The translations under genes and the position numbers were made by a program. Shown in pieces: positions 23,170-55,980 of a DNA stretch of 64,000 bases. Below the pieces are notes generated by a model. The model saw nothing but the letters and a program-made list of their open reading frames with translations. It was not told where the DNA came from and made no database searches. Each line of letters opens with the position of its first letter. The first letter of the stretch is position 1. Source of the DNA: Sandaracinus amylolyticus. GTDB taxonomy: Bacteria > Myxococcota_A > Polyangia > Polyangiales > Sandaracinaceae. The stretch lies in contig NZ_CP011125.1 of the NCBI RefSeq assembly GCF_000737325.1, positions 2,790,001-2,854,000 on the forward strand, given 5' to 3'.

Positions 23170-23254
23170 GGCGATGTCCTCCGTCGTGAGCAGAGGACGT
23201 TCATCGCGAGGGGTGTGCCGGTCCGAGCTGATGAGGGAACGGGCACGAGCACCA

Positions 23255-23369
23255 CCACGTGAGCGTGAGCGTGGTCGTGGTCGTGGTCGTGGTCGGTCGT
23301 TCGCGCGGGGGGAAACGGCCGACCACGACCACGACCACGTCTACGACCACGTCCACGTGAGCGTGAGCG
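23255..23369. repeat. Perfect 21-bp inverted repeat flanked by 17-bp direct repeats
   Basis: The arms at 23276-23296 and 23319-23339 are perfect complements built from a GTGGTC hexamer repeat, around a 22-base loop. They are flanked by identical 17-base direct repeats (CCACGTGAGCGTGAGCG) at 23255-23271 and 23353-23369. The element sits after the stop of the P5C dehydrogenase gene (leftward) and before the lipoprotein gene, so it may end transcription of the former. Confidence 0.85.
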
Positions 23370-25614: not shown

Positions 25615-25630
25615 GGAGGCGCCGGTGTGA

Positions 25631-25815
25631 GGCGGGGGGTGGTGCCTCCGCCGCCCGGGTGCTCGCGGGCTGCTGTGCGGAAGGGCGTGAGCGTCGGGAC
25701 GCGGTGGTCGCATCGCGGCGCGCGCGTTGCGCTCTGCCGCGATGCTTCGATCAGTCCGTGGTCGGCCTCTGCGAGCCCCCGTCGCACGAGGGCGGCGGAG
25801 GCACCACCCCCCGCC
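25631..25815. mobile_element. 185-bp MITE-like element with perfect 26-bp terminal inverted repeats
   Basis: The ends 25631-25656 and 25790-25815 are exact reverse complements over 26 bases (left end starts GGCGGGGGGTGGTGCC). The 133-base interior has no gene. Target-site duplications are not obvious. A miniature inverted-repeat element mobilised by a transposase elsewhere is the simplest reading; a giant transcription-terminating hairpin after msrB is the alternative. Confidence 0.6.
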
Positions 25816-26083
25816 CGGTACCGCGGTTCTGCCGTCTCGCTTGGTTCGGGTGGGGAGGCTCGCGACCGATCCGCGCTTCGCCGCGGCTCGGACGCTCGCG
25901 TGTAGCACCGCGCTGCGCGCGTGTGCGCGCTCGCGCGCGGTATTGGGTGAGATGGACGTGAGGAGCGCGCAGCGCGCGTCAGCGCGATGCGTGCGGTGGC
26001 GTTTGACCCATTGCGCGTCGTTCGCTCGAGCCCACCTCGGTCGAGCGCTCGGCGCGAATCGCGTCACGCGACGGGTACAGCAC
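25816..26083. other. Gene-free stretch
   Basis: Between the MITE-like element and the dispersed repeat I see no credible gene, RNA or clear promoter. Open frames here have poor start context and no codon pattern typical of the neighbouring genes. Confidence 0.5.
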
Positions 26084-38965: not shown

Positions 38966-40057
38966 GTGCGATCCTCGATGTCCGTGATCCCTGCCGCGAC
39001 CGCGACGACGAGGTCCCCCGCCCATTCGGTCGGGTCGCTCGTCGCGCTGCCGATCGCGTTGCTCGATCGTGGGCGCCTCGCGTGGCTGCGGGCGCTCGGT
39101 CCGCTCGCGCCGGCGCTGATGCGCTCGCGCGAGCTGCGCGTCGCGCTCGCGGCGTCGATCGGCATCGCGCTCGCGCTGGCGCTCACCGCGGTCGCGCCGC
39201 TGTGGATGCTCGCGCTCGGGCCGGTGCTGCTCGGCGTGCCCCACGCGGCGAGCGACGTTCGGTATCTCGTCACGCGCCCGGGGCTGCATCGCTCGCCGCG
39301 CTTCTGGCTCATGGTCGCGCTGCCGCTCGTCGCGCTCACCGCGACGGTCGACGTCCGCTGGGGCCTCGCCGCGATCGTCGGAGGCGCGCTCGCCGGGCGC
39401 GGCGCGTGGACGCGACGCCTCGCGGTCGCGTCGATCGGCGCGCTGCTGCTCGCGCTCGCGTGGGACCACACGTACGGCGCCGCGCTCTTCGCCGCGCACG
39501 CGCACAACTTCGTCGCGCTCGCGATGTGGCTCGCGTGGCGTCGCCGCGCGACGTGGCTCCACCTGATCCCGCTCGCGGCGCTCGCGCTCGGGTGCGCGCT
39601 GATCGCGAGCGGCGCGCTCGACGCGATCGTGATGGCGAGCGAAGGCTGGGCCGCGACGCCTGGCGGCACCGGCGCCTGGTACCACCTCGCGTCGATCGCG
39701 CCCGGGCTCGACGATCCCTGGGGCCCGCGGCTCGTGCTGCTCTTCGCGTTCGCGCAGTCGGTCCACTACACGATCTGGATCCGCCTCGTGCCCGAGGAGG
39801 ATCGCGCGCGCGAGACGCCGCGCACCTTCGCCGCGAGCCTCCGCGCGTGGCGTCAGGACTCGGGCACGCTCGTCGTGGCGCTCGCGATGCTGCTCTCGGT
39901 CGCGGTCGCGCTGTGGGCGCTCGTCGATCTCGCGGGCGCGCGCGAGGGCTACCTGCGCGGCGTGATCTCGCACGGCTATCTCGAGCTCGCGATCGCGTCG
40001 TGGTGGCTCGTGGAAGGGCGCGCGCTGCGCACAGACCCCAGAGCTCGCCTCCGTTGA
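38966..40057 (+). CDS. Polytopic membrane protein, Brp/Blh-like
   Basis: 363 residues with about nine membrane segments. Start GTG is supported by AGGAG at 38951-38955; an ATG four codons later is possible. Histidine-bearing motifs lie in or next to helices: LGVPHAASDVRYL, AAHAHNFVALAMWLAW, QSVHYTIWIRLVPEED and GVISHGYLELAIASWW. Such membrane histidines recall the beta-carotene cleaving Brp/Blh family, but similarity by eye is partial. The stop codon (40055-40057) lies inside a palindromic element, so the last residues RTDPRARLR come from that element. Confidence 0.6.
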   Translation: MRSSMSVIPAATATTRSPAHSVGSLVALPIALLDRGRLAWLRALGPLAPALMRSRELRVALAASIGIALALALTAVAPLWMLALGPVLLGVPHAASDVRYLVTRPGLHRSPRFWLMVALPLVALTATVDVRWGLAAIVGGALAGRGAWTRRLAVASIGALLLALAWDHTYGAALFAAHAHNFVALAMWLAWRRRATWLHLIPLAALALGCALIASGALDAIVMASEGWAATPGGTGAWYHLASIAPGLDDPWGPRLVLLFAFAQSVHYTIWIRLVPEEDRARETPRTFAASLRAWRQDSGTLVVALAMLLSVAVALWALVDLAGAREGYLRGVISHGYLELAIASWWLVEGRALRTDPRARLR

Positions 40058-40192
40058 CCCGTCTCGCTCGTTCTCGCCGCCGCATGCTGCGTTGCTCCTC
40101 CTCGAAATGCTTCGAGCATTCCTCGTCGTCGCGCCTTGCCTGCGACGACGATTCCGTCGCGATCCGGGTCAACTCCGGCGAGCTCTGGGGTC
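40034..40192. repeat. 159-bp palindromic element bridging two genes
   Basis: Arms 40034-40060 and 40166-40192 pair over 27 bases with three mismatches (outer sequence GACCCCAGAGCTCGCC). Further imperfect pairing continues inward to a small hairpin (AATGCT-TCG-AGCATT) near the centre. The left arm contains the stop of the upstream gene; the right arm ends one base before the ATG at 40194 and covers its likely ribosome-binding sequence. Confidence 0.85.
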
Positions 40193-40193
40193 G

Positions 40194-40547
40194 ATGACCT
40201 GGATCCTGCGCTGGCTCGCGGCGTTCGCGCTCACGCAGTGCGTCGAGATGGGCGTCTACGTGCAGGCGCACGACGCGCCTCGTCCACTGCGCGAGCGCGT
40301 CGCGATCGCGTTCGCGTGCAGCGGGATCACGCACCCGCTCGTGTGGTTCGTGGTGCTCGACGTGCTCGGCGAGCTCGGAGTGCGCGCGTACTGGGGCCAG
40401 GTCGCGATCACCGAGGGGCTCGTGGTGCTCGTGGAGGCTGCGTTCCTCGCGTGCTTCGGCGTGCGCCGCGCGTTGCTCTGGGCGCTCGCCGCGAACGCGC
40501 TGAGCGTGCTGTTCGGCTTCTTCTGTTACACGCGCCTCTCCTGGTGA
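40194..40547 (+). CDS. Small integral membrane protein, function unknown
   Basis: 117 residues, not recognised. Four probable membrane helices (WLAAFALTQCVEMGVYVQA, VAIAFACSGITHPLVWFVV, VAITEGLVVLVEAAFLACFG, ALLWALAANALSVLFGFF). Positive residues lie mainly in the loop after helix one and after helix three. The start ATG sits one base after the palindromic element, whose arm would mask the ribosome-binding sequence. No family clear; the layout with a conserved-looking GITHPLVWF motif recalls small carotenoid- or copper-related membrane proteins, but this is a guess. Confidence 0.65.
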   Translation: MTWILRWLAAFALTQCVEMGVYVQAHDAPRPLRERVAIAFACSGITHPLVWFVVLDVLGELGVRAYWGQVAITEGLVVLVEAAFLACFGVRRALLWALAANALSVLFGFFCYTRLSW

Positions 40548-41091: not shown

Positions 41092-41097
41092 GGGAGC

Positions 41098-41440
41098 CTC
41101 TCAGGAGAGCAGGAGGGACTACGTCGCGTTGCGCGATGCGCCTCCGAGGGAGAGTTTTTGAGGAGAGCAGGAGGGTTAGGAAGACCACGTCGCAGCGCGA
41201 TCAGCGTCACTCGATGCGCTCGATGCGCCTCTCGGGAGACAGACGAGAGAGCAAAGCAGGTCGAGGTCGAGTGGAGAGAAGGGCGGCGCGGCAAGCGCGT
41301 CGATTTCTTCGCTCTCTCCTCTCCTGTCCTTCCTGCTCTCCTCAGAGGCACAAACTCCTGCTCTCCTCAGAGGCACAAACTCCTGCTCTCCTCGGCGGAG
41401 CTCCTGCTCTCCTCAGAGGGTCGGCTCCTGCTCTCTCCTC
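41098..41440. repeat. Cluster of the dispersed repeat: two forward and five reversed copies
   Basis: Forward cores: C1 (41098-41128, CAGGAGAGCAGGAGGGACTA) and C2 (41155-41192, TTTTTGAGGAGAGCAGGAGG then GTTAGGAAGACCACG). Reversed cores (CTCCTGCTCTCCTC) start near 41330, 41355, 41380, 41400 and 41425, as units of 20-25 bases with the linker AGAGGCACAAA in two of them. The cluster fills the 350-base gap between the convergent CBS and DUF2231 genes; the stop codon of the latter abuts it. Confidence 0.9.
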
Positions 41441-55731: not shown

Positions 55732-55785
55732 GCTCCCTTCGTATCGATCGGCGAGGGCGTTGCCTATCTGAGAGCGGTGGAACAG

Positions 55786-55944
55786 CCGTGCACGAGCACG
55801 TGACACGTGCACGTGCACGTCGAACGACGCGGCGTGGCGGCGGATGAGGCGCGATCTCCGCGGAGGCACTCGACGCGGAGCGCGGGGGTCGCGACTCTCC
55901 TCACCACGTCGTGACTCGTACACGTGCCACGTGCTCGTGCACGG
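55786..55944. repeat. Long CACGTG-rich inverted repeat
   Basis: Arms 55786-55809 and 55921-55944 pair over 24 bases with one mismatch (outer part CCGTGCACGAGCACGTG), and four further bases of six pair inward. The 111-base interior is gene-free. It lies in the 284-base gap after the multi-heme gene and before a membrane protein gene. Similar CACGTG/CGAGCACG words occur at 20840-20890 and 23255-23369. Confidence 0.85.
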
Positions 55945-55980
55945 TCGTTCTCTCCCCACCGAGCCCCCTCACGTTCGTCT

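Follow-up and report, generated by a model that had tools for sequence, protein, structure and literature searches.

Integron attC sites are imperfect palindromes of variable sequence whose active form is a fold of one of the two strands, and their terminal R boxes follow the consensus RYYYAAC/GTTRRRY. A MITE family and its partner insertion sequence usually have the same ends; to our knowledge, it is by the ends that MITEs of prokaryotes are normally defined, and they are limited to narrow groups. In the accessible portions of two reports, bacterial MITEs are described as short elements without a transposase that are bounded by terminal inverted repeats, lie between genes or at gene ends, and give transcripts predicted to form long stem-loops (PMC10969869, PMC2229807). 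REPs, according to the accessible text, are dispersed palindromes found in several phyla and include a CGTC-tagged type without a dedicated transposase (PMC3733652), while REP and REPIN palindromes go together with RAYT transposases (for REPINs, PMC3116915).

The locus analyzed here is a junction between two membrane-type genes of Sandaracinus amylolyticus, located in a window of 64,000 nt (the whole stretch of DNA under analysis, to which all coordinates refer unless another source is named). It very probably carries a non-autonomous, MITE-like palindrome of about 160 nt with a conserved structured core, inserted where the stop codon of one gene meets the start codon of the next. Like the MITEs QMITE2, Correia/NEMIS and RUP, as far as the available descriptions go, the element is short, without a transposase of its own, bounded by terminal inverted repeats, located between genes or at gene ends and predicted to form a long stem-loop. 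Unlike MITEs, it shares its core across phyla while its ends differ, a partner was not found in three genomes, and its target-site duplications are inconsistent. The available text of the MITE papers PMC10969869 and PMC2229807 mentions no core that is kept from phylum to phylum while the ends change. Like REPs and REPINs in their available descriptions, the element is a dispersed palindrome present in several phyla; however, REPs measure 20–40 bp and carry an unpaired tag at one end, whereas the present element spans about 160 nt with its constant part in the centre (PMC3733652, accessible text). In contrast to the REP/RAYT system, no association with PF01797 was observed. In attC sites the terminal R boxes are constant, whereas here the internal loop region is, according to a by-eye reading against the general consensus. 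Among the papers listed in a literature search by core letters and by topic, mostly outside the subscription journals (for one query the first 30 of 426), no description of the element family could be recognised; the family is apparently undescribed.

A Palindrome with a Conserved Core at the Gene Junction

An earlier note, made from the sequence alone, had described a palindrome that holds the stop of the upstream gene in its left arm and ends one base before the next ATG. This geometry was confirmed. The two 34-nt arms (40034–40067 and 40159–40192, annotated on the plus strand) are 85% complementary and separated by 91 nt. The upstream ORF takes its new C-terminal residues and its stop codon TGA (40055–40057) from the left arm; the right arm ends at 40192 and is followed by the single base G40193 and the ATG at 40194. 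Alignment with the empty site of a relative delimited the whole inserted element to 40033–40192 (160 nt), to which no strand was assigned.

The upstream ORF (38966–40057, plus strand) encodes a membrane-type protein of 363 aa and the downstream ORF (40194–40547, plus strand) one of 117 aa; the two adjoin each other in 11 relatives, too. The label "Brp/Blh-like" given to the upstream gene in the earlier note found no support: the protein has no Pfam or NCBIfam match, and four orthologues have no supporting Pfam match. The downstream protein is likewise not recognised by Pfam or NCBIfam. Since both databases fail to recognise the flanking proteins, the Brp/Blh-like assignment stays unconfirmed.

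Folding of positions 40000–40230 as plus-strand RNA gave a z-score of −4.1, better than 200 of 200 dinucleotide shuffles. With DNA energies, positions 40033–40193 reached z-scores of −9.5 on the minus and −8.7 on the plus strand, again better than 200 of 200 dinucleotide shuffles. Between the arms lies a core (40091–40139, minus strand) that reads GTTGCTC..CGCCTTGC on the plus strand and GCAAGGCGCGACGA..GAGGAGCAAC on the minus strand. It includes an inner stem, AATGCT/AGCATT (40106–40120, minus strand), of which the pairing is kept among copies and the letters vary. When the window was shuffled 100 times, the core pattern was matched 0.00 times on average. The covariance model R1 matched 40067–40157 on the minus strand with 73 bits and an E-value of 6e-18, this copy being one of the 85 training loci; the next best match in the window had an E-value of 0.016.

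The palindrome as such is not unique in the window, since other long palindromes are present at 25631–25815, 23256–23359 and 55786–55944. It is the core that sets the junction palindrome apart within the window. The palindrome at about 25620–25826 lacks the core, has perfect 26-nt arms in a total of about 185–207 nt and is possibly a different element; its plus-strand RNA fold amounts to −155 kcal/mol. The strong palindromes at about 23250–23365 and 55780–55950, also without the core, are rich in CACGTG/GTGGTC repeats. In addition, short repeats such as CTCCTGCTCTCCTC(AGAGG) follow one another at 41092–41440, on both strands, between a CBS-domain gene and the next gene.

Empty Sites in Relatives

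In G002, the closest relative and a genome of the same genus, the counterparts of the two flanking proteins have identities of 91% and 96%. The junction of G002 reads GCGCAC-CACCG-GATGAGC, without a palindrome, and TGA, the stop of the upstream gene, shares bases with the ATG of the downstream gene (ATGA). The window has the same flanks, but the 160 nt from 40033 to 40192 replace CACCG. Because of this insertion, the upstream protein ends in RALRTDPRARLR directly before its stop codon instead of RALRTTG as in G002.

The earlier note had left open whether the palindrome was inserted or a designed translational switch. Orthologue comparison favoured insertion: the element is absent between the genes in 11 of 11 relatives that have both genes (28 genomes searched; L196–L206), i.e., in G002 and 10 others, and copies with the same core were found at unrelated loci. 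G002 likewise lacks a further copy of the own genome, L008, which lies at 7.37 Mb: in G002, GGTGA and ATGAGC enclose CGA instead of 159 nt. The comparison with G002 covered these two copies, the third own copy being L007, and neither of the two empty sites revealed a target-site duplication. G002 carries one copy elsewhere (L268), with GTAA on both flanks. In having inserted where a relative has an empty site, as at the two in G002, the element resembles MITEs. On these comparisons, the junction palindrome is best taken as a copy of a small mobile element that was inserted into the DNA here and not as a gene-specific switch, and the ATGA overlap of G002 would represent the older state of the junction.

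Distribution and Copy Number of the Element Family

A loose pattern of the core had four matches in the own genome. Three of them span 49 nt, have matching inner letters and each lie inside complementary arms, the three arm pairs differing in sequence; the inner letters of the fourth (L005) are unrelated. As a loose pattern run across genomes matched 47 of 56 and its reversed control also matched many, it is not specific, and prevalence was therefore taken from a strict pattern only. The latter was found in 17 of 282 Myxococcota genomes, compared with 0 of 282 for the reversed control. The core was abundant in some relatives, with counts of 25 for G043, 20 for G023, 13 for G126, 9 for G007 and 7 for G291, and most genomes had none. 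The 11 copies read in G126, of about 159 nt, are mostly near-identical, and one of the nine read in G007 is of another type.

Among GTDB contigs, at least 113 stretches with the core were found. The record titles among the matches listed span more than ten phyla, although these carrier labels largely denote metagenome bins. They include Beta-, Gamma- and Deltaproteobacteria, Sphingomonas, Acidobacteria, Gemmatimonadota, Verrucomicrobia and Planctomycetota as well as Elusimicrobia, Omnitrophota, Nitrospirae, Nitrospinota, Actinomycetota, Chitinophagales and Eisenbacteria. One Longimicrobiales chromosome (G309) holds 61 core copies. Viral contigs contributed three stretches with the core, one of which (L192) lacks flanking arms as judged by eye; among plasmid records, one query had no match and another had two partial matches.

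R1 was built on an alignment (A1) of 85 of 89 non-redundant sites, four being left out. When applied to 21 sources outside training, it detected the element in all 17 of the 17 core-bearing sources and in none of the four in which a core was not expected (L262, L197, L198 and L203); this test is only partly independent, because L255 is the training site L126, and L223 and L060 are close to L150 and L153, which were used for training. Over 400 kb of G309, R1 had one match, L272, a copy that was also seen in the stretches read but that the strict pattern had missed.

Three side observations were made. Head-to-tail tandem arrays of up to five copies, with a spacing of 171–172 nt or 249 nt, occur in G309 (C1:207202–207749 and 3738542–3739275) and at L097 and L118. 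In an Elusimicrobia bin (L123, 4109–4180, minus strand), a 2dG-II riboswitch scored above the Rfam gathering threshold about 95 nt from the element core. Four Gemmatimonadota loci (L172, L093, L087 and L170) have a left arm that is longer by a segment of about 78 nt, left of the core, with promoter-like sequence (L172: GTTTACATGATGTCACGTTTACTATACT).

Ends, Flanks and Target Sites

Within a genome, most copies have the same ends: CTAGTGGTCTGACC.. in G023, AGGACCCGCCACA.. in G018, AGGGCCCGCGAAAGAACAAC.. in G126, TAGTGCGAGATCC.. in G007 and CTGAGAGGCTGTGAA.. in G213. Terminal inverted repeats, as expected for MITEs, are shared among the copies of G018, G023, G043, G126, G007, G213 and G291, some copies being truncated. 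Single copies deviate from the majority of their own genome (L237 in G007, L245 in G211 and L260 in G291). Between genomes, the ends differ yet stay self-complementary: the median arm-pairing score was 38, compared with 4 when arms were shuffled among loci, and 127 of 153 sites scored above the 95% point of this control.

Both ends could be read for 10 G018 copies, and 6 of these had identical 3-nt flanks, of which five were identified by script and one, L046, by eye; the same held for 3 of 11 G126 copies (by eye). A search of G018, G023 and G126 with 2–3 mismatches allowed gave no element that has these ends and the length of an insertion sequence; the genomes are drafts, and divergent ends would be missed. 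As a candidate, a partner insertion sequence with similar ends was thus rejected for these three genomes, and the stretches of G309 that were read contained no clear one.

Four Gemmatimonadota loci contain versions of about 60 nt that have similar ends and lack the core (L279, 7148–7206; L280, 6103–6161; L284, 10717–10776; L186, 4287–4347). Such remnants would be expected from deletion across the hairpin. Among 120 GTDB sites, an open frame of at least 150 codons ends in the left arm only at 18 sites, in the right arm only (on the other strand) at 43, in both arms at 13 and in neither at 46. Targeting of stop codons is not proven by these numbers, because the element ends often read TAG themselves.

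Structure and Strand of the Core

The core was analyzed in 165 sites (120 from GTDB, 40 from relatives, three own and two viral, with one identical pair). They were chosen from the fetched loci by core letters, a gap of 25–40 nt and a loose motif, and 153 remained for the comparisons of arm pairing, arm mismatches and folding energy after 12 sites with short flanks had been dropped. The invariance of the core letters is partly a product of the fixed letters of the pattern. Positions 8/−12 were left free as C or G (S) in the search, so their complementarity is not made by the pattern. They were complementary in 159 of 165 sites, namely as C-G in 102, as G-C in 56 and as T-A in one, and positions 8/−12 and 11/−15 swap between C-G and G-C together. 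This joint exchange is not required of a double-stranded site, which makes it highly improbable that the structure is incidental, i.e., that pairing of the terminal inverted repeats by itself explains the fold and the core is kept as a double-stranded protein-binding site, even though its fixed letters are well conserved, in part by construction of the search pattern. The helix covariation score for 85 diverse loci was 0.491, compared with 0.168 after shuffling and at most 0.224 when the helix was slid. For the count of pairs changed on both sides, the shuffle control does not discriminate, as 496 of 500 shuffles reached it.

The arms and the core pointed to one strand. In 110 GTDB sites scored symmetrically, arm mismatches on the plus strand comprised 329 A·C and 134 G·T, and 72 sites had more A·C compared with 12 that had more G·T; sign tests on such counts overstate independence, because loci share ancestry. 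An A·C mismatch of the plus strand equals G·T(U) on the minus strand. Two genome families did not show this signal or showed the opposite, namely G035 (5 A·C and 7 G·T) and G043 (30 and 40). Folding energy was lower for the minus strand in 136 of 153 sites, compared with 49 of 122 control segments. Moreover, the unpaired TC/TC of the plus-strand core reads GA/GA on the minus strand, i.e., tandem G·A pairs.

With RNA energies, 285 of 425 core pairs were present in the MFE structure of the minus strand and 6 of 425 in that of the plus strand. With DNA energies the corresponding values were 7/425 and 4/425, i.e., the fold was recovered on neither strand, and the junction copy formed a different inner hairpin. 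DNA parameters may undervalue tandem G·A pairs. In these predictions, MFE recovery favours RNA over DNA as the folded form, and the better-folding strand is mostly the minus strand, antisense to both genes at the junction, in most genome families. No promoter-like site was found at 39900–40400. Rfam 15 gave no match for the element at gathering score in the window stretch and in 17 + 12 loci, and a known RNA family was rejected on this ground.

Mobilization and Replication Strand

For the MITE-like insertion, the ends of the element would be recognised by transposases acting in trans, most simply DDE enzymes. The core would be a helix in which tandem G·A pairs surround single covarying G-C pairs, and it may have been kept because folding of a single strand is needed. 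The folded core would probably be RNA of the minus strand and less likely single-stranded DNA. At the junction, insertion has broken the 4-nt overlap and given the upstream protein its new C-terminus.

A competing explanation, which we consider unlikely, is a transposon mobilized as a single-strand hairpin by an enzyme that reads the folded core of one DNA strand, comparable to integrases at attC sites or RAYTs at REPs. If the folded core is what is recognised, the arms may drift while they continue to pair, and arms that vary but remain complementary, the lack of a same-ended partner in G018, G023 and G126 and the inconsistent target duplication are consistent with it. However, the 3-nt repeats flanking 6 of 10 G018 copies suit a DDE enzyme better, and the core fold is not favoured by DNA energies. 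The Y1 transposase domain PF01797 was present in 5 of 14 carriers compared with 10 of 16 non-carriers (15 of the latter defined by the strict scan and G022 by the loose pattern), which makes a Y1 enzyme unlikely. No match to PF01797 was obtained in the carriers G018, G023, G043, G126, G213, G291 and G309, and a Y1/RAYT mobiliser was rejected since the domain is not associated with carriers.

Orientation of the G309 copies also speaks for this explanation in that it tracks the sign of the GC skew. Between 0.48 and 3.58 Mb, where the sampled skew is mostly positive, 23 of 27 merged loci lie on the plus strand, whereas 15 of 21 elsewhere lie on the minus strand (48 merged loci; Fisher p = 1e-4). 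The skew values come from just 20 stretches, each of 20 kb, and the boundaries were set after viewing the data; a version based on the nearest window gave 35 of 48 (p = 0.002). By the usual convention, positive GC skew marks the leading strand. If this applies to G309, the lagging-strand template would expose the plus strand and not the folding minus strand, which argues against hairpin transposition. The bias may stem from the insertion mechanism, from selection against the minus-strand hairpin on one template or from gene orientation.

Possible Effect on the Downstream Gene

According to the earlier note, pairing of the arms in the mRNA would hide the ribosome-binding sequence of the downstream gene. 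Physically, the arms could plausibly pair over the bases that precede ATG 40194, as they do in the plus-strand RNA fold with its z-score of −4.1, and L008 likewise ends directly before an ATG. By eye, the only Shine-Dalgarno-like letters before ATG 40194 are GGGG, 3 nt from the ATG. Nevertheless, it is very improbable that the hairpin serves as a translational switch that hides the start region until it is opened. The element is not kept with the gene pair, and conservation upstream of the orthologue, as expected for a cis-regulatory RNA, was found in 0 of the 11 relatives with both genes; on these empty sites, a switch made for this gene pair was rejected. Copies at unrelated loci, the folding constraint of the family, which acts mainly on the minus and not on the mRNA strand, and the lack of an Rfam match also speak against it. 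Masking of the ribosome-binding site on the mRNA may occur and would then be a side effect of the landing site. Since a ribosome that terminates at 40057 would sit in the left arm and open it, the two genes may stay translationally coupled.

Implications

With the MITE-like insertion as the preferred explanation, the local effect is that a 4-nt overlap was turned into a 160-nt hairpin and that the upstream protein received a new tail. A broader idea, which we put forward tentatively and regard as rather doubtful at present, is that one structured RNA of the minus strand (GCAAGGCG..GAGCAAC, with tandem G·A pairs framing a covarying single G-C) rides in palindromic mobile elements whose terminal repeats have been exchanged repeatedly and which are moved by different transposases in more than ten phyla; it would constitute an RNA family and a kind of mobile element that are both undescribed. 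In the present family the centre is conserved across phyla under genome-specific ends, and the compensatory changes indicate that selection acts on one folded strand. If the structured-core element is as proposed, R1 would provide a searchable handle on a large, apparently undescribed family, and it would become testable whether a hairpin of structured RNA or of DNA serves a function within a MITE.
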